The position numbers were made by a program, and so were the translations under genes. A stretch of DNA of 64,000 nucleotides from an uncultured Isosphaeraceae bacterium (GTDB lineage Bacteria > Planctomycetota > Planctomycetia > Isosphaerales > Isosphaeraceae). The notes under the pieces were generated by a model. That model was not told the DNA's origin, did not search any database, and worked only from the letters and a program-made list of their open reading frames with translations. Location of the stretch: positions 434,001 to 498,000 of the forward strand of contig CAMFLR010000001.1 in assembly GCA_945957605.1 (NCBI GenBank), in the 5' to 3' direction. Numbering within the stretch: the first letter of the stretch is position 1; the number at the start of each line of letters is the position of its first letter. Of the stretch, positions 20,609 through 36,409 are shown in pieces.

Positions 20609-21949
20609 TTAGATCCGAACCAACTCCTTCACAGCCCTGCCGCCATCGACGAGGCGGATCGGCCGGCCATCGGGGGTCTCAAACTGATAGTTCGGGTCGA
20701 TGCCGATGGCCGAGTAGAGGGTCGCGGCGAGGTCGGCGGGGGTAATCGGGCGGTCAATCGGCGAGTCGCCCTTGGGATCGGTCCGGCCGATCACTGCGCC
20801 GGCCGGCATTCCCGCACCGGCGAGCAAGGCGAAATTCGCGCGGCCGTGGTGGTCGCGTCCCGCATTTGCGTTGATCTTGGGAGTGCGGCCGAACTCGCCC
20901 ATCATGATGATCAGCGTGTCGTTCAACTTGCCACGCTCGGCGAGGTCGGTAATCAGGGCCGACAGCCCCTGGTCGAGCGAGGGCACCAGCGTGTTCTTCA
21001 GCGTCGGGAAGTTTTGCGCGTGCGTGTCCCAGCCGAGTTGACCCTGGCCACGATCGTTCACCGTGACGAACGAAACGCCCGCGTCAACGAGCCGACGCGC
21101 GAGTAGCAGCGTCTGTCCCACCGCGTTTCGGCCGTATTTTTCGCGAAGAGCGGCTGGCTCGTCAGTCATCTTGAACGCCTGCTGAGCAGCGCTCGAGGTG
21201 AGCAGGTCGTACGCTTTATCGGTGAACTGATCGCGTGTTGACGTGAGAGGCGTGGGGGCGACGTCATGCGCGAAACCGTCGAGCGTGCGGACCATCTCGC
21301 GGCGACGCTTGAGGCGTGCCAGGGTGAGCGAGTCGGGAGGAGTGAGGTCGCGCACTCGGAAACCCTCGGCGTTAGGGTCGCCGCCGACGGTGAAAGGGTC
21401 GAACGCAGGGGTGAGGTATCCGCTCGATGAGGCGAAGGGAGCTTCAGGGGCCGAGACGTAAGGAGGCATCGCGCCACGGCTCGCTTCAAGCAACTTGGCG
21501 ACGACGCTGCCGTAGTCGGGGTAGAGAATGGCCGGGGTGGGGCGGTAGCCGGTCATCAGGTGCTGGGCGGCACGCTGGTGTTCGGCCTCGGGCGAGGTGA
21601 CGCTTCGAATCAGCGTTACCTTGTCCATCACCTTCGCCATCTTGGGGAAGAGCTCGCTGATTTTCAGCCCCGGTACCGACGTGTCGATCGGCTTGAATTC
21701 GCCGCGAATGTCGGGCGTGGCATCCGGCTTGGGGTCGAACGTGTCGATGTGCGACGGTCCGCCCGCCAGCCAGATCATGATGCAGCTTTTCACCTTCGCC
21801 GGCTTCACGCCACCAGCGCCGGCGGCGTAAGCTCGCAGGCGAAACAGGTCTGCCAGACCGAGCCCGACCGAGCTGGTAAGGCCCAGTTGCAGCAAAGCCC
21901 GCCGGTTGGTGCGAAAATCGGTGCCGACGGAGAGATTCGAGCGTGTCAT
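20609..21949 (-). CDS. DUF1501 protein, Tat-exported
   Basis: 446 residues from ATG 21949, with GGAG 7 nt upstream; an upstream in-frame extension to 22108 would have an atypical basic sequence and is rejected. Tat-like signal TNRRALLQLGLTSSVGLGLA. DUF1501 motifs: IMIWLAGGPSHIDTFDPKPD, LIRSVTSPEAEHQRA, SFVTVNDRGQGQLGWDTH, GEFGRTPKINANAGRDHHGR. It is probably a periplasmic hydrolase-like protein related to sulfatases; activity is not proven for the family. It is the second gene of a pair with the PSCyt-type gene 43 nt upstream. The domain order (metal-site-like Asp/His in GRDHH) is the same as in the other three DUF1501 proteins here. Confidence 0.92.
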   Translation of the reverse strand: MTRSNLSVGTDFRTNRRALLQLGLTSSVGLGLADLFRLRAYAAGAGGVKPAKVKSCIMIWLAGGPSHIDTFDPKPDATPDIRGEFKPIDTSVPGLKISELFPKMAKVMDKVTLIRSVTSPEAEHQRAAQHLMTGYRPTPAILYPDYGSVVAKLLEASRGAMPPYVSAPEAPFASSSGYLTPAFDPFTVGGDPNAEGFRVRDLTPPDSLTLARLKRRREMVRTLDGFAHDVAPTPLTSTRDQFTDKAYDLLTSSAAQQAFKMTDEPAALREKYGRNAVGQTLLLARRLVDAGVSFVTVNDRGQGQLGWDTHAQNFPTLKNTLVPSLDQGLSALITDLAERGKLNDTLIIMMGEFGRTPKINANAGRDHHGRANFALLAGAGMPAGAVIGRTDPKGDSPIDRPITPADLAATLYSAIGIDPNYQFETPDGRPIRLVDGGRAVKELVRI

Positions 21950-21992
21950 CGCGGTTCTCCGATCGTGGACGTGAAGGTGAAGGGAAAAAATA

Positions 21993-24512
21993 TCAATGAT
22001 TGAACGCAAACTCACGCGAGTTGAGCAAGGCCCAGAACAGGTCTTCCGCGACCTCGCGTAGTTGCGGAGCATCCTTGAGTTCGCTCGTCCAGCGCGAGAG
22101 TTCTTCACTCGTCGGCGGGCGGCAGAGCGTGCGGAAATACAGGTTTTCGACGATCTCTTCGGGCGAAGGTGCGGGCTTCTGGTCGATCAGATTGGCAAGG
22201 TAGCCGTTCAGGTTAGCCACCTTATCCTCAACGACGTTGCCGCCAATGACGAGCAGGGCCTGCCGGAGGCTGAGCGAAGGTGTTTGCACGGTCGCACAAC
22301 CGTTTTGTCGCGAGCAGCGTCCGAAGGCTTCGAGAATCGTGTTGGGCGTCGCGGGATCGGTGATTTCAATCGCACGGGTGCCCGGGGGACGATCGCGGAA
22401 GCGATTGACGACATCAGTCACCTGCGCGAGCGCATCGGCCATTTGATGCGCCGTCAAGGGGCGAGGAATCTGGTGCGAGAAGAAACGTTGGTCGCTCGCG
22501 TTTTCAGGAACTGTCGATGACGACAATCCGTACGCTTCGGACAGCACGATCGTCTTGATCAGCTTCCGTAAATCAAATTTGTTGTCGACAAACGACTTCG
22601 CAAGCGCGTCGAGAAGTTCGGGGTGAACCGGCGGATTCGAGGCAGAGAGATCATCGGCAGGTTCGACGATCCCCTTGCCGAAGAACTGCGCCCAGACCCA
22701 GTTGCTCATGGCGCGGGCAAAGTACGGGTTTTTCGACGAGGTGATCCAATCGGCCAGCGGCTTGCGCGGATCTTCGTTGTCCGCTACCTTGATCGGCTGG
22801 TGGGTCAGCAGCTTTGGCTCAGCCGGCTTATGCGTACGCATATGTTCGAGCGATCCCTTGGGATTCACGCTCACACGTGCCCGCATCATCATCGCGTTGC
22901 CGGGACCGGGTTCGCCCCTGCCAACTTTTGCAAACGCGGCGGCCAGGCCGAAGTAATCGTCCTGCGTCCAGACGTCGAACGGGTGATCGTGGCATTGTGC
23001 ACAACGCATCCGGAGACCGAGGAACCGCTGCGCCGTTTTTTCGGCTTGAATCTTGGGATCGATGCCGTCGAGTGCATAATTCGCGGCGGCATCTTCCTTA
23101 CGGCTGGGATCGCCGAGCGATGTCAGGAGGGTGTAGACGACCTTGTCCCACGGCGTGTTTTCCGTGAGCCTCGCCGCGACCCAGCTTTGATAGAGTGGCG
23201 CAGAACCAGTGAACTCGGGCCGGGCTGACGTGATCTCGAGCATATCGCCAAACTTGATCTGCCAGAACCGAACGAAGTCGCGCTCCTTGAGCAGTTGGTC
23301 GATCAGCTTCGCGCGCTTCTCAGGATCTTTATCGCCGAGGAACGCACGCACGTTTTCAGGGCTCGGCTGCTGGCCGGTGAGGTCGAGCGTCACTCGGCGA
23401 ATGAAACCCGCATCTGACACTGGCGGGCTGGGAGGAATTTTCAGCGAGGCGAGTCGTTTGAACAACTCATCATCGATGAAATTCGCCCGCTTTCGTGACG
23501 CGAAGTCGTACTTCAGGTCGGGATTGATCGGCGTGCCGATGCGCCTCGCGATAACATGCGACCCATACCGCACGACCACATCAGTCTCGGCGCGACGGAG
23601 TAAAACTGCCTTCCCTTGGCCCGAAATCGACACGGCAGAGTCGTCGTTCACCTTGTAAATCGCTTGTCGCGTGACGTCGCGTTCGGAGCCGTTTTCAAAC
23701 TTCGCGAGCACGCGAAGCTGCACTGGGCCAGGTTCGCGAAGTGTCGCGTCGGCCGGTTCGACACGCAGCCCAACCATCGAGCCGAGGGCTTTGCCACGCA
23801 ATTCCGGAGCACCAGCACGAATCCAGGTGATCAGGTTTTCGTATTCGGGTGATCCAACGAGAATCCGCTGGCCGCCAGCGTGCGGGACGCGGCCTGTCGC
23901 TTTTTGAATCAGCAGGCTTGCGTCGGGGTTGAAGCGATCGAGCCGGCGGCCTCCGTCGGCCCGTGTGATTGCGCCATAATCGCTTGCCGGATCATATCCA
24001 AAGAGCGAGAGGTGAAAACCATTTTGCCCATCGGCTCGTCCGTGGCAGCCGCCGGTGTTGCAGCCGGCGCGGGTGAGAAGCGGGACGATGTCGTCGGCCA
24101 CGTTCCAGGGACGTTCGCGCGTTTCAGGGACCGTTACCGCGACTTCAGTTGTGGAACCGCCAAGCGTTGCCTTGATCGATGCCTTGCCGGTGCTCACCGG
24201 CCGGATGTATCCGCCATCGACCGTGACGATTCCCTTGGGCTCAACGCTCCAGGCGATCTTCGACGTCACGTCGGGACCAGTTTTTTCTTCGGGCTTGTGA
24301 CTGACGCCGATCAGTTGCGTACCGAAATCGCCGGGAACGAACGCCACTTCGGCCGGCGACACCGTCAGTACTTCCTGAACGACCGGCGGAGACGCCTTGA
24401 CCGACTCAACCGCCGGTGGCGGCACGCTTAGAGGCTCGGCCTGCTTGCCGCAGCCGACGAATCCGCAGCATAGGGCAACCCAGACGCAGCCGTCTCGAAG
24501 ACGATACGACAT
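21993..24512 (-). CDS. DUF1549/DUF1553 protein with bacterial Ig-like (BIG2) domain, probable lipoprotein
   Basis: 839 residues. The N-terminus has a lipobox-like GFVGCGKQ at Cys21, so a lipoprotein is likely, unlike its paralogues in the window. Residues about 45-130 form a BIG2-like Ig domain (VSPAEVAFVPGDFGTQ ... VDGGYIRPVSTGKASIKA). A haem-like motif CNTGGCH follows near 153, differing from the C-x-x-C-H spacing by one residue. After a further Ig-like segment (GPVQLRVLAKFENGSERDVT) come DUF1549 (CAQCHDHPFDVWTQDDYF) and DUF1553 (SNWVWAQFFGKGIVEP, SEAYGLSS). ATG 24512 has AAGGGGG upstream. It is paired with the DUF1501 gene downstream. Confidence 0.92.
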   Translation of the reverse strand: MSYRLRDGCVWVALCCGFVGCGKQAEPLSVPPPAVESVKASPPVVQEVLTVSPAEVAFVPGDFGTQLIGVSHKPEEKTGPDVTSKIAWSVEPKGIVTVDGGYIRPVSTGKASIKATLGGSTTEVAVTVPETRERPWNVADDIVPLLTRAGCNTGGCHGRADGQNGFHLSLFGYDPASDYGAITRADGGRRLDRFNPDASLLIQKATGRVPHAGGQRILVGSPEYENLITWIRAGAPELRGKALGSMVGLRVEPADATLREPGPVQLRVLAKFENGSERDVTRQAIYKVNDDSAVSISGQGKAVLLRRAETDVVVRYGSHVIARRIGTPINPDLKYDFASRKRANFIDDELFKRLASLKIPPSPPVSDAGFIRRVTLDLTGQQPSPENVRAFLGDKDPEKRAKLIDQLLKERDFVRFWQIKFGDMLEITSARPEFTGSAPLYQSWVAARLTENTPWDKVVYTLLTSLGDPSRKEDAAANYALDGIDPKIQAEKTAQRFLGLRMRCAQCHDHPFDVWTQDDYFGLAAAFAKVGRGEPGPGNAMMMRARVSVNPKGSLEHMRTHKPAEPKLLTHQPIKVADNEDPRKPLADWITSSKNPYFARAMSNWVWAQFFGKGIVEPADDLSASNPPVHPELLDALAKSFVDNKFDLRKLIKTIVLSEAYGLSSSTVPENASDQRFFSHQIPRPLTAHQMADALAQVTDVVNRFRDRPPGTRAIEITDPATPNTILEAFGRCSRQNGCATVQTPSLSLRQALLVIGGNVVEDKVANLNGYLANLIDQKPAPSPEEIVENLYFRTLCRPPTSEELSRWTSELKDAPQLREVAEDLFWALLNSREFAFNH

Positions 24513-24652
24513 GTGCGGAACCCCCTTCGACGTGGGCGCGTGAAATGACGAATGTCATTGGGTTCAATCCTAAATTACTCGGAGATGATTGGCAAGAGGC
24601 TGAATCCGCATTTTTTCAAGTTTATCTTCGGCTCAATTCCAAGACCGATTTC

Positions 24653-24681
24653 TTGACAGCCGCCGCCGTCTGGGATTTAAT
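24653..24681 (+). promoter_or_regulatory. Strong sigma70-type promoter of the GbsR/MarR-like regulator
   Basis: -35 TTGACA (24653-24658, perfect), 17-bp spacer, -10 TTTAAT (24676-24681, 5 of 6). Initiation near 24688 gives a leader of about 34 nt before the GTG at 24722. It is the best promoter in the window and lies inside what would otherwise be read as an N-terminal coding extension. Confidence 0.72.
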
Positions 24682-24698
24682 TTCTGTTAGGACAGAAA
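24681..24698. promoter_or_regulatory. 18-bp palindromic operator overlapping the regulator promoter
   Basis: TTTCTGT-TAGG-ACAGAAA, perfect 7-bp arms with a 4-nt centre. It runs from the last base of the -10 hexamer across the predicted start site, a position where a bound protein would block initiation. Autorepression by the encoded winged-helix regulator is the simple reading. I found no second full copy of the palindrome in the intergenic regions of this window. Confidence 0.65.
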
Positions 24699-24721
24699 GA
24701 ACCGATAGGGCGGTCTTAACT

Positions 24722-25306
24722 GTGATTCTTACTCCGGCAGCGAAAAAATTCGTTCTTCATTGGGGTGAGATGGGCCAGGCGTGGGGTATCAACCGCACGA
24801 TGGCGCAGGTTCACGCGCTTCTGTTCGTCACGCCCGACGCGCTTGATGCCGAAGAGATTAGCCAGTTACTCGACGTGAGCCGGTCGAACGTGTCGACGAG
24901 TTTGCGCGAGCTGATCACCTGGGGCGTGGTGCGACGGGTTCATATTATTGGCGACCGTCGCGATCGATTCGAAGCGCTCAAGGATGTGATGGAAACGTTC
25001 CGCGTGATCATGGCGGAGCGGAAACGCAGAGAGATGGACCCGACAATCGCGCTACTTGAACATTGCGTGGTCGAGGCGAAATCAGGCGGGCCGGCCGAGC
25101 AGTACACGCGCGAGCAGCTTGAAAAGATGCTCGAATTCGTGCGCATGGTGACGCTTTGGTATGGGCATATTGATCAGCTTTCGACTCCTGCGCTCGAACG
25201 TTTGTTCCGCAATGGCTCGCGGCTGGTGAAGCTTTTCGGCTGGGGCAAGGCTCTTGCCGAGCGAGAAGGCGAGAACAAGGACGAAGCCGAGACGACGGCC
25301 AAGTGA
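24722..25306 (+). CDS. GbsR/MarR-family transcriptional regulator
   Basis: 194 residues from GTG 24722. This start is chosen because a near-consensus promoter lies at 24653-24681, AGGG lies 11 nt upstream, and the protein then begins where GbsR-type proteins do, just before FVLHWGEMGQAWGINRTMAQ. A longer frame from ATG 24545 would include the promoter as codons. The winged helix-turn-helix is seen in LDAEEISQLLDVSRSNVSTSLREL and GVVRRVHIIGDRRDRF. The C-terminal half is helical with coiled-coil character and would dimerise. GbsR relatives repress osmolyte or metabolic genes; targets here are unknown. It is convergent with the five-gene operon (36 bp apart) and divergent from the DUF1549 gene. 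Confidence 0.85.
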   Translation: MILTPAAKKFVLHWGEMGQAWGINRTMAQVHALLFVTPDALDAEEISQLLDVSRSNVSTSLRELITWGVVRRVHIIGDRRDRFEALKDVMETFRVIMAERKRREMDPTIALLEHCVVEAKSGGPAEQYTREQLEKMLEFVRMVTLWYGHIDQLSTPALERLFRNGSRLVKLFGWGKALAEREGENKDEAETTAK

Positions 25307-25342: not shown

Positions 25343-26938
25343 TTAGAACGGAGTCGCGGGCGCTTCCGTTGTTGCAGCGGGCTGCGCTGGTTCGGGTGCG
25401 GGAGCCGCTGGTTTGGCGGCGGGGGCTGCTTTTTTGGCGGCGGCTTTTGCCTTCTTGGCGGCTGCTGCTGCATTTGCCGCGTCGCGTTCCTTGGCTCGTT
25501 CGACCGCATCCTTGTAGGCGTGGAAGATTTCGTCATCCATGTATCGGGTGATCATCGACTTCGTGTCGGCGATTTGAGAACGCACGTTTTTGGTCAACAC
25601 GATTGTTTTCAGCTTCGCTTCCTGAGCCGTGGCGCCGCCCTCGATCGCTTCCAGGCGCTTGATATAAACGTCGCGCGGGGTGAGCTTGTTGAACTCAGCA
25701 AGCACCTCGGCAACGCCGTTCCAGTCGTCGCCCTGCTCGCGCGCTTTCATCCGACGTTCCAGCCGCGAGCGAATGGCAACGATGTCGAGTATCGCGTCCC
25801 GAAGCGCATCGAGCTGCGCGTGTACGGTAATTGCGTGCGGCTTCGGCTCGAAGGGGACAACCAACTCTTCGTCAAGCTCGCCGGGCATAACAGGTAAGTC
25901 GAACATCGGTTCGGCCTTGCCCGCGGTCAGGCGGAATATCACCAGTCCGTCGGCGAATCCAGGCGGAAGGTTCACGCGTCCTTCGCGGTCGGTTGTCGCA
26001 AGCTCGCGAAACACGCCGTCGGGAATCTGGCGATACGAGAGAACATAGCCAGCGGCGGGCGTTTTATCGGGAAGTTTGGTGAATCGGAAGCGTGTGGGCA
26101 TCGGAGCCGGTTTAACGCCGAGCGCGATGAGCTTGTTCTTGCGTGCAATGCGTTTTGTGAGCGGGTCGCGAACGCCGCGAATGAGCGAAGTTTCGACGAT
26201 GTCTCCCTCGTGCTTCGTGACGCGAAGATACGAGTAGAGAATCTTCTCGATGCTCAGCCGCGACCCGTCTTCGTTCAGAAACACGCGGATCGGCCGGAAA
26301 ATGGTGCCCGGCGGTGCGAGCGGATCGGTCCCCTGCCCTGACACAAACGAAGCGCCTTGCACGCGCAAGGGAACGATGTCGCCTTTTGGCTCGCCAATCT
26401 CGGCAGACGGAGCGAAAATCTGATTTGTCAAACGAAAGAGCTCACGCGCCAGATCGGCGCGATACGCGACCAATCGCTCGTGGTGCGAACCGAGCCAACC
26501 GGTTTCGACGTCGAGTTCGCGGGCGTGAAGTTCGATCGCCGAGCCGGCTGCGCGGCCCTGAATGATCCAGACCTTGTCGACGTCATTACCCAGCACGCGA
26601 AGGTCATCGGCTGAGAGATCTTCGAGTCGCGAGGCCGAAGCTGGGCCATCGCTATCGGCGATTTTGACATCCCAGACCGGGCCAATCATTCGCGCGGCGA
26701 GCATGCGCCACTCGTCAATAAGCTGTTCACGCGAGCGAGCGTCGATTCGTGCGGCGGGCTCGAACGAAACGAACGCACGAATCACGTACGGCTTCGACTC
26801 GATTGGAATCTGAGGCTTGGTCGCAACTTTTGGCTCCTCCGCGGGGCGCGCGGCTTTCTTGGCCTCCTGCGCGGAGACTGAGGTGAGCACGACGAGCAGT
26901 GCACAGGCCAGCGTTACCAGGGATCGTTGGGGAACCAC
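25343..26938 (-). CDS. Secreted protein of unknown function, last gene of the five-gene envelope operon
   Basis: 531 residues from GTG 26938, which has GGGAGG 7 nt upstream and opens directly on a signal peptide (LVTLACALLVVLTSVSA). A GTG at 26953 is also in frame. The mature part begins with charged linker KKAARPAEEPKVATKPQ, continues with a globular domain that I do not recognise, includes a short beta-rich segment (AGYVLSYRQIPDGVFRELATTDREGRVNLPPG, carboxypeptidase-regulatory-like in style), then helical sequence. It ends in a low-complexity Ala/Lys/Pro tail of about 55 residues. The gene overlaps the 3' end of the upstream gene by 25 nt, indicating translational coupling in the operon 35464-25343. 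Confidence 0.8.
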   Translation of the reverse strand: MVPQRSLVTLACALLVVLTSVSAQEAKKAARPAEEPKVATKPQIPIESKPYVIRAFVSFEPAARIDARSREQLIDEWRMLAARMIGPVWDVKIADSDGPASASRLEDLSADDLRVLGNDVDKVWIIQGRAAGSAIELHARELDVETGWLGSHHERLVAYRADLARELFRLTNQIFAPSAEIGEPKGDIVPLRVQGASFVSGQGTDPLAPPGTIFRPIRVFLNEDGSRLSIEKILYSYLRVTKHEGDIVETSLIRGVRDPLTKRIARKNKLIALGVKPAPMPTRFRFTKLPDKTPAAGYVLSYRQIPDGVFRELATTDREGRVNLPPGFADGLVIFRLTAGKAEPMFDLPVMPGELDEELVVPFEPKPHAITVHAQLDALRDAILDIVAIRSRLERRMKAREQGDDWNGVAEVLAEFNKLTPRDVYIKRLEAIEGGATAQEAKLKTIVLTKNVRSQIADTKSMITRYMDDEIFHAYKDAVERAKERDAANAAAAAKKAKAAAKKAAPAAKPAAPAPEPAQPAATTEAPATPF

Positions 26939-29382
26939 GGTTCCACCTCCCACGACTCGATGCCTTGATAGAGGTGGCTGCGCGTGTCATTCATCCCTTT
27001 GACCCGCGTCCGATAGCCGTAATAGTCTTCAACCTGCCAGAGCGGAAGGATTGGCAGCTCGTCACGTGTTTCGCGATCAATTTGAAGCACAAGTGTATGC
27101 GACTGCGTCGTCTCTGGTGCGCGATCGAGCTCCATGAGCAATTGCAAAATGCGTGGGCTGGCCAGCGAAGCGAGGGGGTCAGACCCAGGCGCAGCATCGT
27201 AGGCGGGACAAATCGTGGGGCCAGCGTCGATCGCCGGTTCTCCGGGGCGGCTCGCGCAATAGGCGAGATCGAATCGGCCGCCCGAGCGCAGCTTCGCCTC
27301 GAGTTGGCCCTCAGGAACTTCACGCAGAACGATTTCGAGGCCAACGAGCGTCCACGCCTCCGCCAGCTTGGGGCAAACGGCTCGCGCAGCCGGCGTGGGT
27401 GGATACTCGAGGGTAAGCTTGATGGCGGTGCCGCTCAGTTCCTTTCGCGCCGCCGCAACGAGCATTTTCGAGAGCAGCGGGTCGTAAGTGAGTGGTAGAA
27501 CGTCGGGGACGTCCGCGTACGAACCTTTGAGGAACGGGCCGTCGCTCACCGTGTTTTTCTGGTCGCTCGGACGCCGCAGTACTGATTCTTCAAGCAAGGT
27601 TTTCCGGTCGATTGCCAACGACAGTGCGCGGCGAAGCGAGCGATTGCGGAGCGTTATGGTTCGGCCGTCGAGGGCGATTCGGTGCAGGCTCGGCGCTGCA
27701 TATTTGCCGACCTTGACGAGCGGCCGCGCGGAAATCTCCGGAACGCGGTCGGCCGGCAGCGATTCGATGACGCTTACATCGCCACGGATGAATGCGGCGA
27801 GCGCGGCAGCGTGCGAGTCGTAGCGGATCTCGCGGACGCGCTGGATGCGGTTCGACCCGGGCGAGGCGTCAGCCGCAACAGAAACATATTGATGAATCGC
27901 CTTGTTGGTCGAAGGAGCCCAGCGGAAGGGGCCATCGCCGACGGGCTGCCGCCCCTGATCGGGCGTGGCGACCCAACCATCGCCGGCTGCGTGCGCAGGA
28001 CCAACCGGCGCGACGAGCCATTGCTCGGGGCGCAAACTCGCCCGGCCCAGCCGGACTTCAATTTGCTCGTCCTCGGTCACTTCGACTCGTTCAACGAGGT
28101 CGGCCCAACGCGCATTATAGCCGGGAAGCGTGGGCACGGCGCGATCCGCGAGCGAACGTGCGACATCGATCACGCTCACGGGACGCGAACCATCGTTCCA
28201 GACGAATCCTGGCTTGAGCCTGATACGCATGCCGCGCGCGAGGTCGAATGTCTCAACACGACTTGCAAGCTGATTCGGCGGATTTCCCTTGAGAGCGTCT
28301 TCGGTTGCGGCTGCGAGAATGGGCCGATAGAGGAGCGAAACGGTTCGAGCATATGCCGACGAGCGATTCCACGGCCCGACGGGCGTGGGCAACTCACTTA
28401 CGGCGACGTCAACGGTTGGCGCGGCGGCGAATGCTTCGCGGTATGTCGCGTCGAGTCCCTGATATTTCGGCCAAATCTCGGCCGCAGAAACGAGCATGTC
28501 GACCTTCGCAAACTTGTCGAGTCCAGTCGCGCGGTTTACGAGGTCTCTCGTTCTAGCTTCAAACTTGGCTCGCGAGTTTTTGACGACGAGATGATCGGGA
28601 GCGAAACTTTCGAGCTCGTGCAGAACCTGCCGCCCTTTTGCATAAGCTCCCAGGTCGAACGCGCTATTGATTCGCGTGGCGAACGAAGGAGCAAATTTGT
28701 CGGCGAGGCCAGGGTAATTCGGTTTTCGCGTGTATAGCTCGGTGAGCAGTCGCAAGCCGCGTTCGTGCTCGTTGTCGTTCATGCTCTGGCTTCCCTCTTC
28801 AAAGAGAAGCCGGTCGACCGTGTCTTCGATCCCTGGCCATTTTGGGTTGCGTGCCCGTGCGAGCAGGAGGTATTCAAACGCTTTGCGATACTGGCCGGCC
28901 GAGATTTGCTTGTTTGCCTCTGCTACGAGCAAATCCTCGAAGTAGAGAACCTTCTTGATATGTTCGCGCTTGACGTAGAAGTCGCGGAGGTCGCCTTCGA
29001 GCGTGTGAATTGTGATCTGCTCGGCTTCCTGTTCCTTCGACTTCGCCTTGGGCATCTCGAAGGTCGACTTCTCGCCTGGGAGGCCGATGTTCCCCTCGCG
29101 CGGGACGAGCTCGTCGGCCGCTTTGGGCCGCGGTTTCTTCTTGGGATCGTAAGGCGGCAGCGGCCGCGGGGCGAGCGGCTCGATCTCCCATTGCGTGTCG
29201 TCGATGAGGATGATTTTGTCGTAAGGCGCCCGCGCGATGAGCTCGCGGTCTTTTGAATTGGGGTCGAGCGGATTCTGTGCTGATGAATTGAACGCAGCCA
29301 GAAGCACGAATGTGGTCGCGATCAACAGCGCACTGGCGCGAACGAGGGGAGCACGACTGTGAGATGAGATTTGCCGCGTCAC
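26914..29382 (-). CDS. TPR-like protein fused to a family-5 extracellular solute-binding (peptide-type) domain
   Basis: 822 residues. Signal peptide (ASALLIATTFVLLAAFNSSA) to about residue 36. Then a proline/lysine-rich linker and a helical repeat region of about 120-310 with TPR-like pattern (AGQYRKAFEYLLLARARNPKWP, NEHERGLRLLTELYTRKPNYP). From about 325 to the end it matches SBP_bac_5: TVSLLYRPIL, GMRIRLKPGFVWNDGSRPVSV, DGPFRW, LRRALSLAIDRKTLL, ELPILPLWQVEDYYGYR. Ordinary members are 500-600 residues and serve ABC importers of peptides or nickel. No permease or ATPase gene is nearby, so a transport role is doubtful. Its start overlaps the preceding stop by 4 nt (ATGA). Confidence 0.85.
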   Translation of the reverse strand: MTRQISSHSRAPLVRASALLIATTFVLLAAFNSSAQNPLDPNSKDRELIARAPYDKIILIDDTQWEIEPLAPRPLPPYDPKKKPRPKAADELVPREGNIGLPGEKSTFEMPKAKSKEQEAEQITIHTLEGDLRDFYVKREHIKKVLYFEDLLVAEANKQISAGQYRKAFEYLLLARARNPKWPGIEDTVDRLLFEEGSQSMNDNEHERGLRLLTELYTRKPNYPGLADKFAPSFATRINSAFDLGAYAKGRQVLHELESFAPDHLVVKNSRAKFEARTRDLVNRATGLDKFAKVDMLVSAAEIWPKYQGLDATYREAFAAAPTVDVAVSELPTPVGPWNRSSAYARTVSLLYRPILAAATEDALKGNPPNQLASRVETFDLARGMRIRLKPGFVWNDGSRPVSVIDVARSLADRAVPTLPGYNARWADLVERVEVTEDEQIEVRLGRASLRPEQWLVAPVGPAHAAGDGWVATPDQGRQPVGDGPFRWAPSTNKAIHQYVSVAADASPGSNRIQRVREIRYDSHAAALAAFIRGDVSVIESLPADRVPEISARPLVKVGKYAAPSLHRIALDGRTITLRNRSLRRALSLAIDRKTLLEESVLRRPSDQKNTVSDGPFLKGSYADVPDVLPLTYDPLLSKMLVAAARKELSGTAIKLTLEYPPTPAARAVCPKLAEAWTLVGLEIVLREVPEGQLEAKLRSGGRFDLAYCASRPGEPAIDAGPTICPAYDAAPGSDPLASLASPRILQLLMELDRAPETTQSHTLVLQIDRETRDELPILPLWQVEDYYGYRTRVKGMNDTRSHLYQGIESWEVEPWFPNDPW

Positions 29383-32300
29383 GGTGCAGCCTTCCCTTCC
29401 GGCCGAATTGCCGCCACGGGACGCATCGAGCCAAGTCCTGCAGGAATTACGAGCAGGTTGCCGGCCGGTTGTGGAGGCCCGGCTGGTAGAACGCCAAGCA
29501 TCAGTCGTTCTGCGGGTAAACCATCACTCATCTTCCGCGATTCGATCGCGCCGGCACGCGTCAGGAACCATGCAGCGCCGTTGTGAATCGCGGGCGCATC
29601 CGTCATCGGCGATCGCAACGTTGATTGCCAGATTCTGCGACCATCTTTACCGAACGCGGCGACACCTCCGGCCGAGTCGCCGCAGAAAACAAATTCACCC
29701 ACGGCGATTGGTCCCACACTCCGCAGGCCGGTCAGATCGACCGAGCCAACAGGACTGAGGTCACGCGTCGCGAGGGTACGGAGTTTGTTGTCTGACGTGG
29801 CAATCACAATGCTCGCGCCGGTGGTCGCGATTTCACCGGAGATTGGCTTGCCGAGCCGGCTCTCGCCCGTGACGCTGAGCTTGGGGCGTGGCTTATCGGT
29901 TTTGACCAGCCGGCGAATGAGGCCATCGCGCTCGGCAAGAATCACCGAGTCACCGTCGACCAGCACAGGACTCAGCCATTGAGACGGTCGCGACTTGTCA
30001 AAGCGCGGGACGAACGGATCGGCCGCGAATTCACCCGTTGCAGGATCGATCAAATAGATGCGTCCGTCGGATCCTGGGATGAGCACGTCTTTGCCCCAGG
30101 CGATTGGCGATGCGCCGAGTGGGGCGGGCAGTTCGAATCGCTTGTACGCCGCATCTCCCTTTCGCGCGAGGATGTGATTCGCCCGCGGCTCGGGGATCAT
30201 CACAGTGGTCTCGCCACAGCGTAGCCAGCTTGCGCCTTGTGAGGGGACGCGGAAGGTGCCAGGCTTGCTCAGCGGTTGTTCTATGAATCCGCCCTTGGCG
30301 AGCGTGTCGGCGGCGATGGTCAATTTCGAACCGGTGAATCCGAGGGTTTCGATCGCGCCGTTTCCCACCGCAGTAAACTCGACCGGCCAGGGCGCACCGA
30401 GCGTGGTGCGCCAGGCGATTACTCCTGACTGCGGATCGACGCCGGTGAGCGCGACGCCAGGGCTGTCGACGGACTGCTGGGTGAAGATCGCCAGCTTATC
30501 GACGACCTGCAAAGGTGCCAGCGCCGGGCCAATTTGTGAAAGACCCCAAACGCGCCCGAGCTTGCCGGTTTCGGAATTGAGGTCGAACCGCGCGGGGCGA
30601 GAGGAGGTCAACCAAAGCTCACGCTCTGACCGGGCAATCGCGAAGGCTGGGCCGCTCGCGGTGTTATCGGCGGGGATGACGGCAATGGGACGCAGTGGTT
30701 GATCCGACTCGTAGAGACCGATGGACTGCGCGACGATTTCGCCGCGGTCGCTGACAGACCAGAAAACCGAGCCGGAAGTGGCGGGTGATTGCCAGATCCA
30801 TCCCGCAACGGGAATCGTCTGCCTGAGCGACAGCTTGACGCCTGCTTCATCGAGCACAAATACTTGCCAGCGGCCGTCGGTCAGCGAAATGTTTTCGGGC
30901 ACGACAAAGAATCGGCCAACCCGCGTCGGGCTCGCCGGAATTGATCCAGGCGCGTGGCCGAGGTATTCGACGCCGACGCAGGAAATTGGGTCGCGATTGA
31001 TGACGAAGAGGCAATCCTGGTTGGCCAGCACGTAGAGATGCGCGCCAACTTCATCGCTCACAGGCGTGCGGTTGATGGGGCGGCCGAGATTCAGCGAGCC
31101 GCGCACACCGCCGTTATTCAAGTCGATGAATAAGAGTTTGCCCGACGGTAATGCATAAATGATTTCATTACCAATTACGAGCGGAGGGTCGACGGCTCGT
31201 TCGCCCAGTTCTTGGCGCCAGAGGAGCTTGCCGGTGCGCTGGTCGAGTCGCACAAGTTCATCGTAACGCGCGTCGATGAGCAGTACTGTCGGATCGCCGC
31301 CGGCAACGGGAACTGGCGGGAACGGGCACGAGAGGCCGACGGGCACCTGCCAGAGCGGAGCGCCTGTCGCGGCATCAAGTCCGAAGGCGAGGCCATCGGC
31401 AATCGCGTGGGCGATCCCCCCAGAATTTGCGGGTGGAGCTCCTGGGTTCAATCGCAGCACCAGCGTAGTTGGCTCGCCGAGGGGATCGGCATGCGGCTGC
31501 GACTCACCGGGGCGCTGTGATGGATCGAATTGCACCGCTTTGCGAACGAGCTCATTTGCTTTGATCAAGTTCGCCAGGATGTCGCGATCGTTCGCGAGGT
31601 CGGGATACTTGAAAACCAGGCCATCGCGCGCTTCATAGGCCTTGGCGGCAGCATTCGAGTCGATCGCCTTGGTCATCGCCGCGAGGGCGCGTTTTCGCGT
31701 TTCTGCTTTCACGATCGCGGCACGGGCGGCTGCGAGTTTCTCGTTAATTCGCGACTTGCCAACAAGACTACTCGCCGCGTTCCCCGCGACCTGGCCGAGA
31801 AGCCTCAGCGACGCTTCTGCCTCGTTTAGCGGTTCCTGTTGTGCGATGGCTCGAGCGCGGTCGGCCAGCCCTTCCGTGGTTTTCACGAGCTGTTCGGCAA
31901 GTTCGGTCGATGCGTCGCGATACTCGTCGAGACCGCTGACGTCGGTAACCATCGATTGCGCCGCTTGGAGGGCGTTTTCCCACGAAGCACCGGTCAGGCT
32001 GGTGAACTGACGCACCTTTGCGAGTGAGCGATATACCCGCGCCTTGTTCGAGCGATTGTCTTCGGGAAATCGCGTGATGAAGTCGTCAAGCTGTTTGATG
32101 GCGTTGCGATAATCACCGTTGTCGAGGCTCTCGAACGCGCGAAGGAATTGCTTCTGCGACGTCGCCTTGACGATCGTATGCCAGAGGCCGAAGCTCGAGA
32201 GCACAAGAATGACAAATGTGATGATAAGTCCAACGACGAACGGTGAACTGATCACCCGCTCCTGGCCGGGCGCATCGTTTTGGGGCAAGATGCGCGACTT

Positions 32301-32855
32301 GAGCCACTGCCAGAACGAGACCTTGGGTTTTTGCCTCGCGCGGCTCGAACCATAAACTGGTTCAAGATCCTCGCCGTCTTCGAGAATGTCAACCTCATCG
32401 AGATCGAGCGCTTCGAAGAGATTAGGCTTGGAAGGCTTTTCCTTTCGCTTACTTTTCTCTTCGTTTCGGCTCTTGGGAGTGCTTGAACGGCCAGTTGGGA
32501 CGTAGACTTTGGGAGCGGGTTGAATGCGTGTTTTGTCGTCGGCCGGAATCGCGACGCGCGACTCTTCGGTGCTGATGACGAAAACGCGCGTGGTGCCGAT
32601 CCGAATTTCGTCGCCCTGGTAAAGCGTCGATTTCTTGAGGCGTTTGCCGTTTACCTCGATCGCATCGACATCGGCGCCCGCGTCGATCTTGTACCGCCGT
32701 TTTTGCCAGAGAATTCGGCCATGAATCGGCGCGACGGCGGGGTCGTTGATCACGATCGTGCAGGTTGGGTTCGAGCCGATGATGCACGGCTCGTCACGCG
32801 CGATTTCAACGCGTTCTACCCGTCCTTTGCCATCGTGAATTTCGAGAATCGCCAT
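29379..32855 (-). CDS. FHA domain - transmembrane - TPR - PQQ-like beta-propeller protein
   Basis: 1158 residues. A FHA domain occupies residues 1-100 (CIIGSNPTCTIVINDP, then GKRLKKSTLYQGDEIRIG). A disordered charged linker follows (110-180), then a single membrane span at 206-228 (VVGLIITFVILVLSSFGLW). Helical TPR-like repeats cover about 235-430 (FESLDNGDYRNAIKQLDDFI). From about 450 to the end are PQQ/quinoprotein-type propeller blades (LDQRTGKLLWRQELGE, LYVLANQDCLFVINRDP, RDGLIRRLV). The FHA part would be cytoplasmic and the propeller outside. The usual FHA Gly-Arg and Ser-x-x-His residues appear as Gly-Ser and Ala-x-x-His, so phosphothreonine binding is doubtful. Centre gene of the five-gene operon. 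Confidence 0.87.
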   Translation of the reverse strand: MAILEIHDGKGRVERVEIARDEPCIIGSNPTCTIVINDPAVAPIHGRILWQKRRYKIDAGADVDAIEVNGKRLKKSTLYQGDEIRIGTTRVFVISTEESRVAIPADDKTRIQPAPKVYVPTGRSSTPKSRNEEKSKRKEKPSKPNLFEALDLDEVDILEDGEDLEPVYGSSRARQKPKVSFWQWLKSRILPQNDAPGQERVISSPFVVGLIITFVILVLSSFGLWHTIVKATSQKQFLRAFESLDNGDYRNAIKQLDDFITRFPEDNRSNKARVYRSLAKVRQFTSLTGASWENALQAAQSMVTDVSGLDEYRDASTELAEQLVKTTEGLADRARAIAQQEPLNEAEASLRLLGQVAGNAASSLVGKSRINEKLAAARAAIVKAETRKRALAAMTKAIDSNAAAKAYEARDGLVFKYPDLANDRDILANLIKANELVRKAVQFDPSQRPGESQPHADPLGEPTTLVLRLNPGAPPANSGGIAHAIADGLAFGLDAATGAPLWQVPVGLSCPFPPVPVAGGDPTVLLIDARYDELVRLDQRTGKLLWRQELGERAVDPPLVIGNEIIYALPSGKLLFIDLNNGGVRGSLNLGRPINRTPVSDEVGAHLYVLANQDCLFVINRDPISCVGVEYLGHAPGSIPASPTRVGRFFVVPENISLTDGRWQVFVLDEAGVKLSLRQTIPVAGWIWQSPATSGSVFWSVSDRGEIVAQSIGLYESDQPLRPIAVIPADNTASGPAFAIARSERELWLTSSRPARFDLNSETGKLGRVWGLSQIGPALAPLQVVDKLAIFTQQSVDSPGVALTGVDPQSGVIAWRTTLGAPWPVEFTAVGNGAIETLGFTGSKLTIAADTLAKGGFIEQPLSKPGTFRVPSQGASWLRCGETTVMIPEPRANHILARKGDAAYKRFELPAPLGASPIAWGKDVLIPGSDGRIYLIDPATGEFAADPFVPRFDKSRPSQWLSPVLVDGDSVILAERDGLIRRLVKTDKPRPKLSVTGESRLGKPISGEIATTGASIVIATSDNKLRTLATRDLSPVGSVDLTGLRSVGPIAVGEFVFCGDSAGGVAAFGKDGRRIWQSTLRSPMTDAPAIHNGAAWFLTRAGAIESRKMSDGLPAERLMLGVLPAGPPQPAGNLLVIPAGLGSMRPVAAIRPEGKAAP

Positions 32856-32879
32856 GGATCGACGGCTGCCCCCTGGAGC

Positions 32880-33827
32880 TTAGCGCAGCGTCTCCTGCGA
32901 CGCGACCTCAAAATCGTAACTGTCGCTCGTCGGCACAACGCGGAACTGCGTGCGGCGGATTTCCGACGGCTGCCGTCCTTTGAATTTCACTTCAAGCTGC
33001 GAGAGATTTGCTTCCGCGCCTGCGGGGTAGAACTGGAAAATTACCCCCTCACCCACCTCCACACCCGCCTTGCGCAGAAGCGCGAGATCTTGCGCTTTTC
33101 GGCCTTGTCCGCGCCAGATGAAATAGAGCCGATTATCCCCCTGCCCTGTTCCCACTCGCTTGGAAGGCTCGTCCTGCGAAAACTTCGATACATAAAGCAT
33201 CTGGTTATTCGAGACGATCGCCAGTTCGACGCCTAGCGCGTCAAGCTGTCTGGCGTATTCTTCGGCGGTCTGGCCGGGGTTGAACACGATGCTCCAGCGA
33301 TCTTCTCGCTTCACACCACCGTCGCCCGGCCCGAAGCCGTAACCAACGACGCCATTGCCGATTTTCGACGAACGCGCGCCAGACGCGACGCGGCCGCCTG
33401 ACGGCATGACCGCGCCGATGTCGACCTCGGCCATTTGCTTGCCGGCCTCGGCGACGGTATCGAGCATTGCGGCCGGAGTTGCTTCGGCGGTGACTTCCTC
33501 GAACGCGCTCGCTTCTTCCTCGTTGTTCGACGCCCGTTCGCCCGCCGCACCGCCGGGAACCTGGATCGTCTCGACGCCGCCGACCTGGCCATCGGGACTT
33601 CCACCGCCTCCGCCCGAAACCTCAATGATTTCGAGTGGGGCCGTCACGCGCTTCTGATAGGCCAGATTCGTCGCAAAGACGAGCATGAGCCAGCCGAAAA
33701 TCAGTGCCGCTCCCATGATGATGGCGAGCAGTGCGGACGTAACGCGGTCGAAATCCGACTCACCTCGGACGCGTGGCCCGGCGGCTTCGGTCCTCGGAGC
33801 ACCTGGAGTCAGAGCGCCGACGCTCAT
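32880..33827 (-). CDS. Single-pass membrane protein of unknown family in the envelope operon
   Basis: 315 residues. A cytoplasmic N-terminus of about 30 residues precedes one membrane helix (ALLAIIMGAALIFGWLMLVFA). A Gly/Pro-rich periplasmic linker follows (VSGGGGGSPDGQVGG) with an acidic stretch NNEEEASAFEE. The C-terminal 150 residues form a globular domain (WSIVFNPGQTAEEYARQLDALG, RLYFIWRGQGRKAQDLALLRKAG) that I do not recognise. The topology resembles TonB/ExbD-like periplasmic adaptors, but no sequence signature of either is visible, so that comparison is only structural. Its ATG overlaps the stop of the upstream gene by 4 nt, and the FHA gene starts 24 nt after its stop. Confidence 0.8.
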   Translation of the reverse strand: MSVGALTPGAPRTEAAGPRVRGESDFDRVTSALLAIIMGAALIFGWLMLVFATNLAYQKRVTAPLEIIEVSGGGGGSPDGQVGGVETIQVPGGAAGERASNNEEEASAFEEVTAEATPAAMLDTVAEAGKQMAEVDIGAVMPSGGRVASGARSSKIGNGVVGYGFGPGDGGVKREDRWSIVFNPGQTAEEYARQLDALGVELAIVSNNQMLYVSKFSQDEPSKRVGTGQGDNRLYFIWRGQGRKAQDLALLRKAGVEVGEGVIFQFYPAGAEANLSQLEVKFKGRQPSEIRRTQFRVVPTSDSYDFEVASQETLR

Positions 33828-35464
33828 TTGGGCGTCCCCCCTGCCCCAGAATTGCCGGTTGTCGCCGGAGGAATAAATGCCTTGTTGGGATCGCTGTCAT
33901 CAACACCAAGCGGCCGGACCGATTCATACCAGGCACGCCAGGCCTTGGCAGCGGCTTCTCGCTGTTCGGGTGTGGAGGGATTGGGCGGACCAAAGCCTTC
34001 GATCTTGCGGCTCAAAAGCTGCAAGCCAATCCGCACTTCGTTGACGACCTGTTCATCGGGGTCGGTCAGCGATCCGATCAAAATTGGCATAAGTGAAAGC
34101 TCGCCCATGCGTGCGATTCCCCAGGCGGCAACTCGGCGAACGCCGGGATCACGGTCGGTGAGCAACTTCTGGAAGCGGTCGCGATAGGGCAAAATCGCCT
34201 TGGGACCGTCTTTACGATAGCGTTCGAGCAAGCCGGCGAGTGCGGAATCTGCATTTTCGGATCGGGGATCTTCAAGGACGGAAAGCATCCCTTCGATCGC
34301 GCCGTCCATCGGCCTCGCGACGATGCGGCCGCCTGCTTCGGAGATGGCGGAGAGGTCTTTGGGAAGTCCCTTGCCGCCGTACAATTCCCCTGCGCCGAGG
34401 CGTTTCACGCGGATGCGGTCGATCGATTTCGCGGTTGATTTGGTCAGGAAAAGCACGGCCCAGGCGGTGTTGGGAACTTCGCCGTGTGCCGCGTTGAATG
34501 AGCCGTCGCCCTGCTGTTTGCTTGTAATGAATTGAGCGCCAACTTCGAACCAGTTGGAGCGGCCGAGATTCTCGCGACCGGCAAACGCTCCGACGCGTTC
34601 GATGCCGTAAAGGCCGTAAAATGGGCTCTGGCCGATGACGGTGGGATTGATGGTTGTGAAGTTTGTCGTGAGCCAACCAATCCCGGAATTGATGGCCTGC
34701 GTGAGCTTGGCGGTCGGGGTTTGGGCCGTGTACCGAACGCGCTGGGCTTCGGTCATGACGGGCGTGAGATACGGATTCTGCGCCGAAACGGCTCGACGAT
34801 GGGCTGCGAGTTGCCGCTGGCAGATTAGCAAACTGCCGACGCCCGCCGCGGTCATCGATATGGTGTCGCCGCCGTTTTCATCGCGATGGTAGCACCAACC
34901 GCCGGCCGCATCTTGAGCCTTCATGAAGAACCCGGCGGCGTTGTCCCAAACGCTGGGGTGGATAGTGATTCCTGCGTTATCGGCTTCCCAGAGGCCGAGC
35001 ACTGCATACTGGGAAATCGAGGTGTCGCCATAAGTTCGGCCGTCGTAATCCCACCCGCCCGACGCCTTTTGACGGGACATGATGTATTCGGCCAGGCTTT
35101 TGATCTGCGATTTGCGGCCGTTGGCGTCGAGGTTTGAGTACGCCATGATCATCACGGCGGCCTCGTAAATCTCTGGCCCGCCCCGGCGCTCGGGACTGTA
35201 CAACGAACCTGAGAAGAGCGAGTCGAGCTTGCGAATCGCGGTGGAGAGTGCGGGGTCGCCCTCCGGCACCTCGGCCTTGATCATCGCTAACGCAGCGAGC
35301 GCGGCTTCGCCGGCCTGCGCGCCATTGACGGCGCGTCGAAGGTAGTCGATTCCGCGAGTCACCGCCGCCACCTGTTCTGCTTGCGCCGGTGGTGCGAAAC
35401 AGGTTAGCCAAAGGCCAACCGCCAGGGTGATCGCTACGCGCTGTGCGGACCGCGGATCCGACAT
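33824..35464 (-). CDS. Secreted prenyltransferase/squalene-cyclase-like alpha-barrel protein with HEAT-like C-terminus
   Basis: 546 residues. Signal peptide to AQA near residue 29. Residues about 35-350 contain several alpha/alpha-barrel repeats of the prenyltransferase/squalene oxidase type: SRQKASGGWDYDGRTYGDTS, QDAAGGWCYHRDENGGDT, QQGDGSFNAAHGEVPNTAWA. The DXDD motif of true cyclases is not seen, so catalysis is unlikely and a binding or scaffolding role is more plausible. Residues about 395-500 carry HEAT-like repeats (DRDPGVRRVAAWGIARMG, DPDEQVVNEVRIGLQLL). First gene of the five-gene operon. A TACAAT-like -10 lies at 35508-35513 on the minus strand, without a good -35. Confidence 0.85.
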   Translation of the reverse strand: MSDPRSAQRVAITLAVGLWLTCFAPPAQAEQVAAVTRGIDYLRRAVNGAQAGEAALAALAMIKAEVPEGDPALSTAIRKLDSLFSGSLYSPERRGGPEIYEAAVMIMAYSNLDANGRKSQIKSLAEYIMSRQKASGGWDYDGRTYGDTSISQYAVLGLWEADNAGITIHPSVWDNAAGFFMKAQDAAGGWCYHRDENGGDTISMTAAGVGSLLICQRQLAAHRRAVSAQNPYLTPVMTEAQRVRYTAQTPTAKLTQAINSGIGWLTTNFTTINPTVIGQSPFYGLYGIERVGAFAGRENLGRSNWFEVGAQFITSKQQGDGSFNAAHGEVPNTAWAVLFLTKSTAKSIDRIRVKRLGAGELYGGKGLPKDLSAISEAGGRIVARPMDGAIEGMLSVLEDPRSENADSALAGLLERYRKDGPKAILPYRDRFQKLLTDRDPGVRRVAAWGIARMGELSLMPILIGSLTDPDEQVVNEVRIGLQLLSRKIEGFGPPNPSTPEQREAAAKAWRAWYESVRPLGVDDSDPNKAFIPPATTGNSGAGGTPK

Positions 35465-35590: not shown

Positions 35591-36409
35591 TTATTTGATG
35601 AGCGGACGGATCTCGATCTTGCGGAAGAAAAGCTCTGCTCCTTCGGATTGGAACTGCAACTTTCCTTCAGTCAGGCTCGATTGCGTCCCCACGTTCACCA
35701 CGTAACCATTCACGATATTCGTGATCGTGGAGCCGTCGCAAATCACTTCGATGGTGTTCCATTCACCGGTTGGCTTCTCGACATCGCGCGCGCCTCGGAT
35801 TCCGAGGACGTCTTTCCAGGATGGGTCTCGGCCCCACCAGTTATAGCGGCCACCATCGCGCGTGACGGAGTTTCCGCCCTTTTCATAGTAAAGCTGCTTG
35901 TCGGGGCCGACGCGCGTTTCGCACGTCAGCTTCGGCTTGCCGCGACCGCCAACCATGAGCAGATCGCCGCAGCCCCCCTCGATGATCTGGCACTCGATCG
36001 ACTCCATCCAGTGCCCGCCGACGGCACCATCAGGGCCGACGCAATGCAACAAAATCCCTGAGTCACGACTGGCCTTGGCCCGCGAACCCCAGGTCTTTTC
36101 GCCCCACTTGAATTCGACGATCAGGTGGTAATTGGAAAAGTTGCCGCAGGTTGCCAGGCCGCCAAAGTCTTCCCCCGAGACGTGAATCATTCCGTCGTGC
36201 ACGGTGAAGACTTTTTCGGGGTCGTAGTAACCGTGCTTGTGCGTGTAGGGATAGAAGCCGGTCGTATCCTTGCCGTTGAACGCGAAAATCGGCGGCCCTG
36301 TCTTGATTTGCGGCAACTCGCGGGCGAATGCGGGAACAGTCGAGTCGTCTTTCGCCGCTCCGGGGAGCATCAGAGCGGCGATCGCGAGCGCAAGACAGGC
36401 GGGCTTCAT
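35591..36409 (-). CDS. DUF1080 (3-keto-disaccharide hydrolase-like) secreted protein
   Basis: 272 residues. ATG 36409 with AGGAG about 9 nt upstream; signal peptide KPACLALAIAALMLPGAA. The mature part is a single DUF1080 domain of concanavalin-like beta-sandwich type: FAFNGKDTTGFYPYT, MIHVSGEDFGGLATCGNFSNYHLIVEFKWGEK split around the cysteine, SGILLHCVGPDG, MESIECQIIEGGCGD, GEWNTIEVICDGSTITNIVNG, and the terminal EGAELFFRKIEIRPL. Such proteins act on or bind oligosaccharides in the periplasm; one group hydrolyses 3-keto-glycosides. Highly abundant in planctomycetes. Single gene between the five-gene operon and a small unknown gene. Confidence 0.92.
   Translation of the reverse strand: MKPACLALAIAALMLPGAAKDDSTVPAFARELPQIKTGPPIFAFNGKDTTGFYPYTHKHGYYDPEKVFTVHDGMIHVSGEDFGGLATCGNFSNYHLIVEFKWGEKTWGSRAKASRDSGILLHCVGPDGAVGGHWMESIECQIIEGGCGDLLMVGGRGKPKLTCETRVGPDKQLYYEKGGNSVTRDGGRYNWWGRDPSWKDVLGIRGARDVEKPTGEWNTIEVICDGSTITNIVNGYVVNVGTQSSLTEGKLQFQSEGAELFFRKIEIRPLIK

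Follow-up and report, generated by a model that had tools for sequence, protein, structure and literature searches.

The Tol-Pal (TolQ-TolR-TolA-TolB-Pal-CpoB) and Ton (ExbB-ExbD-TonB) systems share a motor superfamily and use TolA and TonB, respectively, as transducers. Planctomycetes divide by budding without several of the standard division genes and carry out energised uptake of large molecules. For the Planctomycetes-Verrucomicrobia-Chlamydiae (PVC) group, an excerpt of PMC12204202 describes von Willebrand factor A (vWA) force transducers encoded with a tetratricopeptide repeat (TPR) gene, a tolQ-like gene and two tolR-like genes. The same motor superfamily includes PomAB, whose assembly around the flagellar rotor requires the FlgT ring (PMC4960245, excerpt). 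Here, a block of five collinear, nearly contiguous genes (P1 to P5; 25343-35464, minus strand) was analysed in a 64,000-nucleotide stretch of DNA (the window) from an uncultured Isosphaeraceae bacterium of the class Planctomycetia. An earlier note, made from the sequence alone, had proposed that their products form a passive, periplasm-spanning scaffold. The five genes are instead probably most of a conserved planctomycete machine providing a moving, Tol- or Ton-like link between both membranes. Together with an ExbB-ExbD1-ExbD2 gene trio that has been relocated in this family, P1 to P5 would form a trans-envelope machine driven by the proton motive force and conserved in Planctomycetia, most likely with a Tol-Pal-like job, a reading to which we assign a probability of about 0.72.

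Association of the block with an ExbB-ExbD1-ExbD2 trio

Elsewhere in the class, other families have three genes between P2 and P3, which encode one MotA/TolQ/ExbB protein and two ExbD/TolR proteins (Pfam MotA_ExbB and ExbD), with lengths in gene order of about 203-275, 142-221 and 203-341 aa and a few longer. The complete operon P1-P2-ExbB-ExbD1-ExbD2-P3-P4-P5, or most of this order, was observed at loci of families f2, f5, f6 and f7. In family f4, P2-ExbB-ExbD1-ExbD2 and P3-P4-P5 lie apart, and in genomes G368 and G330 P2 stands alone and ExbB-ExbD1-ExbD2-P3-P4-P5 are together (in G368, P2 at ~1132.8 kb and the six genes at ~2201.6-2211.5 kb); the breakpoints of the operon vary between lineages while its parts stay together. 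Comparison with the nearest NCBIfam models placed the proteins in the superfamily and not at equivalog level (tolQ, 57 bits against a cut-off of 221; tolR, 52 against 127). The transmembrane (TM) Asp motif was present in 29/29 ExbD1 and 29/29 ExbD2 proteins examined. The linked trio thus combines an ExbB/TolQ-family pore protein with ExbD/TolR proteins bearing the TM Asp, as in a 5:2 motor, and the system is best read as a putative motor system of the 5:2 (TolQR/ExbBD) kind.

Within Isosphaeraceae, 20 of 25 genomes searched held one ExbB scoring 193-232 bits, with the runner-up at no more than 113 bits, and ExbB, ExbD1 and ExbD2 stood in a row in all 15 of those 20 genomes that were retrieved. 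In the genome under study the trio is intact and is located outside the window (G000:C10:282426-284673, corresponding to L141 8427-10674). The trio in this family has been relocated as a unit. Operon and relocated ExbBs are of single-family ancestry: in a tree of 53 ExbBs, 16 from operons and 15 from Isosphaeraceae fell on one side of a branch with 100/100 support, with 20 paralogues and 2 other sequences on the opposite side. As ExbB and two ExbD genes are part of the operon in other families, and as the trio is kept elsewhere in Isosphaeraceae, the system very probably draws energy from the proton motive force.

The same two observations argue against the passive scaffold of the earlier note. 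A structural or sensory complex of P1 to P5, to which the ExbB and ExbD genes are mere neighbours, would agree with the absence of an adjoining ExbB-ExbD-ExbD set in Isosphaeraceae and at some other loci, and with family f3 (at a guess, probably Gemmataceae), which keeps P1, P2 and P4 without an operon-type ExbB. However, ExbBs of one and the same family are found with the block in at least five other families and persist at another site in Isosphaeraceae, and the parts stay together despite lineage-specific breakpoints, which makes this explanation quite unlikely.

Some further features of the trio were observed. The N-terminus of ExbD2 resembles a zinc ribbon in f2 (L091 6736-7452) and, by eye, a GYF domain in Isosphaeraceae (L141 9649-10674). 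A response-regulator gene is divergent to the relocated trio at the 3/3 Isosphaeraceae loci listed (L141 7316-8224, L142 5137-6039 and L147 5199-6119). One genome holds a second, diverged P2-ExbB-ExbD1-ExbD2 cluster (L156 1117-4083; G041:C22) in addition to the main operon.

Conservation and co-location in Planctomycetia

Conservation was assessed in 59 genomes, comprising the source genome, 36 others of its family and 22 others of the class, with a match threshold of E ≤ 0.001. Matches were obtained for P1 in 59, P2 in 55, P3 in 57, P4 in 54 and P5 in 49 genomes, the P1 and P3 counts being inflated by paralogous domains. P2, P3, P4 and P5 were found together in 25 of the 37 Isosphaeraceae genomes, as read by eye from the coordinates; in the remainder, contig ends cut the block, genes were absent from incomplete genomes, or P4-P5 was displaced, by about 20 kb in G009, G026 and G034 and to another contig in G003 and G018. 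When the phylum was searched with a P2 profile, with five candidates scored per genome, 40 of 392 genomes matched, 40/40 of them within Planctomycetia.

The same gene order recurs in families whose proteins share 20-35% identity. Neighbouring genes common to several families stop at P1 and P5, the other listed clusters being restricted to Isosphaeraceae; the exception was two small cross-family clusters (7 and 5 members) which, by eye, seem to be spurious or generic genes. As the order recurs at such low identity and no specific neighbour family is shared across families, it reflects more than chance. Co-location across planctomycetes had been set beforehand as a test on which the idea of a system would stand or fall, and the orthologues proved to be usually co-located across Planctomycetia. 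Among the best 80 of 109 named GTDB loci, a P1 orthologue lay immediately upstream of P2 in 52. Downstream of P2, the same 80 loci showed ExbB and P3 (36), ExbB without P3 (9), P3 without ExbB (19) or neither on the P2 strand (16); these counts are lower bounds, since 14/80 loci end within 4 kb, before P3 is reached. At L181 and L219, ExbB is present in the opposite orientation.

No description of this gene set was found in the open-licence literature searched by titles and the starts of abstracts, the nearest being PMC12204202, and the main text of a paper on the essential genes of Planctopirus limnophila (PMC10632474, excerpt) names no ExbB, TolQ, TonB, FHA or squalene. The block is conserved and co-located and, as first described, is an envelope gene set without a named pathway.

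P2 as a putative force transducer

The AlphaFold2 model of P2 has the TM segment, long flexible linker and folded periplasmic domain that characterise TonB/TolA transducers, with about 100 disordered residues in the linker and a predicted local distance difference test score (pLDDT) of about 90 for the C-terminal domain. No Pfam family was assigned to P2, neither TonB_C nor vWA was matched in 32/32 P2 proteins, and a P2 profile gave weak, unrelated matches only against PDB sequences. On the basis of the model, P2 is proposed to be a force transducer whose topology matches that of TolA and TonB, although it has neither their C-terminal family nor their TM His. P2 proteins of the f3 type at L108, L109, L158 and L160 carry a TonB/TolA-like TM His and do not lie beside other operon genes; these may use another motor.

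Domain content of the remaining proteins

The note had assigned a signal or anchor segment to four of the proteins, and a clear hydrophobic segment was indeed seen in P2, P3, P4 and P5 (Table 1); such a segment is probably present in all five, the N-terminus of P1 being weaker but signal-like by eye.

P5, previously listed as a secreted protein of no recognisable kind, still has no Pfam family but now has a lead at the level of fold. Its model (pLDDT 87) matched FlgT over residues 53-280 (Foldseek, 3w1e at E 1.6e-8 and 8z5n at 9.6e-9; VIA, Z 8.4 and 9.2, with 187 and 198 residues aligned and a root-mean-square deviation of 8.6-8.9) and the N-domain of TolB over residues ~52-183 (VIA, Z 7.8-8.1, 112-118 aligned, 3.1-3.5 Å), the best TolB structure being 4pwz (Z 8.1, 117 aligned, 3.2 Å). 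As Z values of this size can reflect a common arrangement, and sequence-level support is lacking, the TolB-N/FlgT-like fold is taken as a lead only.

P3 places its propeller in the periplasm and a signalling-type module in the cytoplasm, as had been predicted. A PQQ dehydrogenase identity was rejected, a BamB-type propeller being the better match. The further proposal that the FHA domain reads a cytoplasmic signal stands as to the presence and location of the module, but the reading of phosphorylated residues is doubtful. The phospho-threonine contacts of FHA domains are Gly-Arg, Ser and Asn, as in Rad53 FHA1; at these columns the P3 of the window has GS, APIH and A, which does not mark it as a phospho-threonine reader. 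The contact Arg after Gly was present in 7 of the 71 P3 proteins with a residue at that column and absent from the other 64, with a gap in 11/82. In two P3 homologues (L225 8359-12906 and L232 12970-17463) a full Ser/Thr kinase replaces the FHA domain (5.2e-48 and 2.2e-48), and the P3 proteins of L092, L098 and L101 have just a short stretch resembling the leader ahead of the kinase. These kinases could indicate that P3 is a wall or envelope sensor of the receptor kinase type, with P4 and P5 as ligand-binding co-receptors and the motor giving mechanical input. This is unlikely, however, since a kinase was found in 2/5 P3 proteins scanned with Pfam, both chosen for their kinase look, and the FHA contact Arg is missing in 64/71.

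P4 combines a TPR-like region with an SBP_bac_5 domain of the dipeptide-binding type. The earlier observation that no ATP-binding cassette (ABC) permease or ATPase is encoded was borne out, none being found among P1 to P5 by Pfam scan or among neighbours shared across families. P4 resembles ABC peptide importers (DppA-type) in its SBP_bac_5 domain but differs in its TPR fusion and in lacking a permease and ATPase, and an ABC importer identity was rejected. P1 matched SQHop_cyclase weakly (17 bits against a cut-off of 26.1), and a squalene cyclase identity was likewise rejected as being below the cut-off; a true cyclase-like gene is found elsewhere in the genome (490 bits). No match to OmpA was found in P1 to P5 with Pfam, no OmpA/Pal search of the genomes having been made.

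Comparison with known systems and proposed function

TolB_N (PF04052) was found in 0/59 genomes, with 3/14 controls positive, including E. coli. TonB_C was found in 5/59, with positive controls and no PF03544 match in the source genome; this is in line with PMC3422733, which, in the excerpt, counted TonB in four planctomycetes only. The block shares with Tol-Pal the TolQ/TolR-type motor genes, a single-pass TM-linker-domain protein, a propeller, TPRs and, in P5, a TolB-N-like fold. It differs in that neither TolB_N nor TonB_C is matched at sequence level within the operon, in its two different ExbD/TolR proteins, in carrying the propeller on a membrane-anchored FHA protein, and in its additional solute-binding and toroid proteins; the likeness is one of parts and not by descent of the whole. 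In comparison with Ton, the motor superfamily is shared and P2 has a TonB-like topology, but P2 lacks a TonB_C match and mostly the TM His, and no TonB-dependent receptor is found in the block. The heterologous tolR-like pair, TPR gene and transducer other than TolA or TonB are also features of the vWA system of the PVC group (PMC12204202, excerpt), from which the block differs in the absence of a vWA match in P2 (32/32), in the partners P1 and P3 to P5, and in the SHLS-type TM His being mostly absent from P2. The similarity to the FlgT/H-ring of sodium-driven flagella is confined to the fold of P5 residues 53-280, and flagellar genes are not in the block.

A Tol-like role is favoured since TolB_N was not found and TonB_C was rare in the 59 genomes and the motor, transducer, TolB-like fold, propeller and TPRs resemble Tol-Pal. 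In the proposed mechanism, the motor would consist of a TolQ/ExbB-like pentamer and a TolR/ExbD-like pair (ExbD1 and ExbD2), and P1 to P5 would be the periplasm-facing part of the machine. Ion flow through the motor would move P2, which would span the periplasm and engage P5, P4 and P1. With its anchor in the inner membrane, P3 may organise the periplasmic parts through its TPR-propeller region and tie them to the cytoplasmic FHA or kinase module. The likeliest job would be to hold the outer membrane and the wall to the inner membrane as cells grow and bud, with TonB-like uptake as second choice.

Several observations weigh against this machine. The operon of the genome under study, and that of Isosphaeraceae, lacks the motor trio. 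Among the 50 named loci with at least 9.5 kb downstream, same-strand ExbB and P3 were both absent after P2 in 8, and P3 occurred without ExbB at the locus in 15, of which 11 are Isosphaeraceae. Family f3 has full-length P4 (6/6 genomes) and P1-like and P2-like genes, but these are scattered; P5 was not found in 6/6 genomes by single-sequence search, and no ExbB above paralogue level was found in the 4 of 6 tested (best 81-86 bits), the two of these four placed in the tree both falling on the paralogue side. The TM His is lacking in 112/115 P2 proteins outside f3 and present in 3, some of the predicted segments being doubtful. Comparison of the P2 model, taken whole, with the PDB gave no good match for the C-terminal domain, the best scores being to unrelated chains (Foldseek, best E 0.058; VIA, best Z 3.2), so that any novelty of its fold would be tentative. 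A P5 profile gave 17 weak matches to PDB sequences, and neither TolB nor FlgT was among them.

A TonB-like use of the motor and P2 to bring in macromolecules by way of a structure in the outer membrane, with P4 and P1 receiving the cargo in the periplasm, would suit the retention of an SBP_bac_5 fold in P4 with no permease or ATPase in the operon, and the rarity of TonB in the class (5/59; PMC3422733, excerpt). It would also suit the uptake of green fluorescent protein and dextran into the periplasm of planctomycetes, which is abolished by carbonyl cyanide m-chlorophenylhydrazone (CCCP) (PMC5394234, excerpt). No outer-membrane barrel was found in the conserved block, however, and Gemmata obscuriglobus takes up dextran yet f3, probably Gemmataceae, lacks the operon and its ExbB, so that such a role is unlikely.

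A more far-reaching reading can be put forward only tentatively. It would be an undescribed, Planctomycetia-specific system driven by the proton motive force and replacing Tol-Pal and Ton, in which the motor, TolQ-like and fitted with two distinct TolR-like subunits, would drive a new transducer, P2, with a C-terminal fold of its own, to work on the TolB-N/FlgT-like protein under cytoplasmic kinase/FHA control and power either the remodelling of the outer membrane during budding or CCCP-sensitive uptake.

Gene layout and context

All five open reading frames were found in one run where the note had placed them, on the minus strand (Table 1). P1 and P2 overlap by 4 nt, P2 and P3 are separated by 24 nt, and P3 and P4 overlap by 4 nt. 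The overlap of P4 and P5 is 40 nt counting from the first GTG of P5 and 25 nt, the figure given previously, from its alternative start. No sigma-70-like sites above chance were found inside the block on the coding strand; 2 were seen against 2.2 expected, both on the opposite strand.

Table 1. Features of the window. Positions are those of the 64,000-nt stretch; residue numbers refer to the protein.
Feature	Position	Strand	Length	Parts	Basis
P1	35464-33824	minus	546 aa	signal-like N-terminus; squalene-cyclase-like alpha/alpha toroid; HEAT repeats	HEAT_2 2.4e-6
P2	33827-32880	minus	315 aa	TM helix 25-58; disordered linker ~63-170; C-terminal alpha/beta domain 174-313	AlphaFold2 model
P3	32855-29379	minus	1158 aa	cytoplasmic FHA-type domain; TM ~201-220; TPR; PQQ/BamB-type propeller	Pfam FHA/YscD_cpl, PQQ_2
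P4	29382-26914	minus	822 aa	signal peptide; TPR-like region; SBP_bac_5 (dipeptide-binding-type) domain	Pfam 9.3e-27; DppA 4.5e-10
P5	26953-25343 (alternative GTG start 26938)	minus	536 aa	signal peptide; TolB-N/FlgT-like fold ~52-280; CnaB/TTR-like domain 283-370; helical C-terminus	model
3' flanking gene	24416-25306	plus			
5' flanking gene	35591-36409	minus			
Gene pair	20609-24512				by eye

The gene on the 3' side of the block is convergent with it, and beyond this regulator gene lies a typical planctomycete pair, one large cytochrome/DUF1553-like and one DUF1501-like gene. On the 5' side, the same-strand gene begins 126 nt from P1; it resembles a secreted DUF1080-type protein and seems, by eye, to be part of an 8-protein cluster restricted to Isosphaeraceae.

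Implications

The proposed system would add a type of transducer beyond TolA, TonB and vWA proteins. The operon is very probably present in a planctomycete species for which genetic methods and a published transposon library exist. This conserved, motor-linked envelope operon offers a concrete genetic target for the energisation of the outer membrane in planctomycetes.

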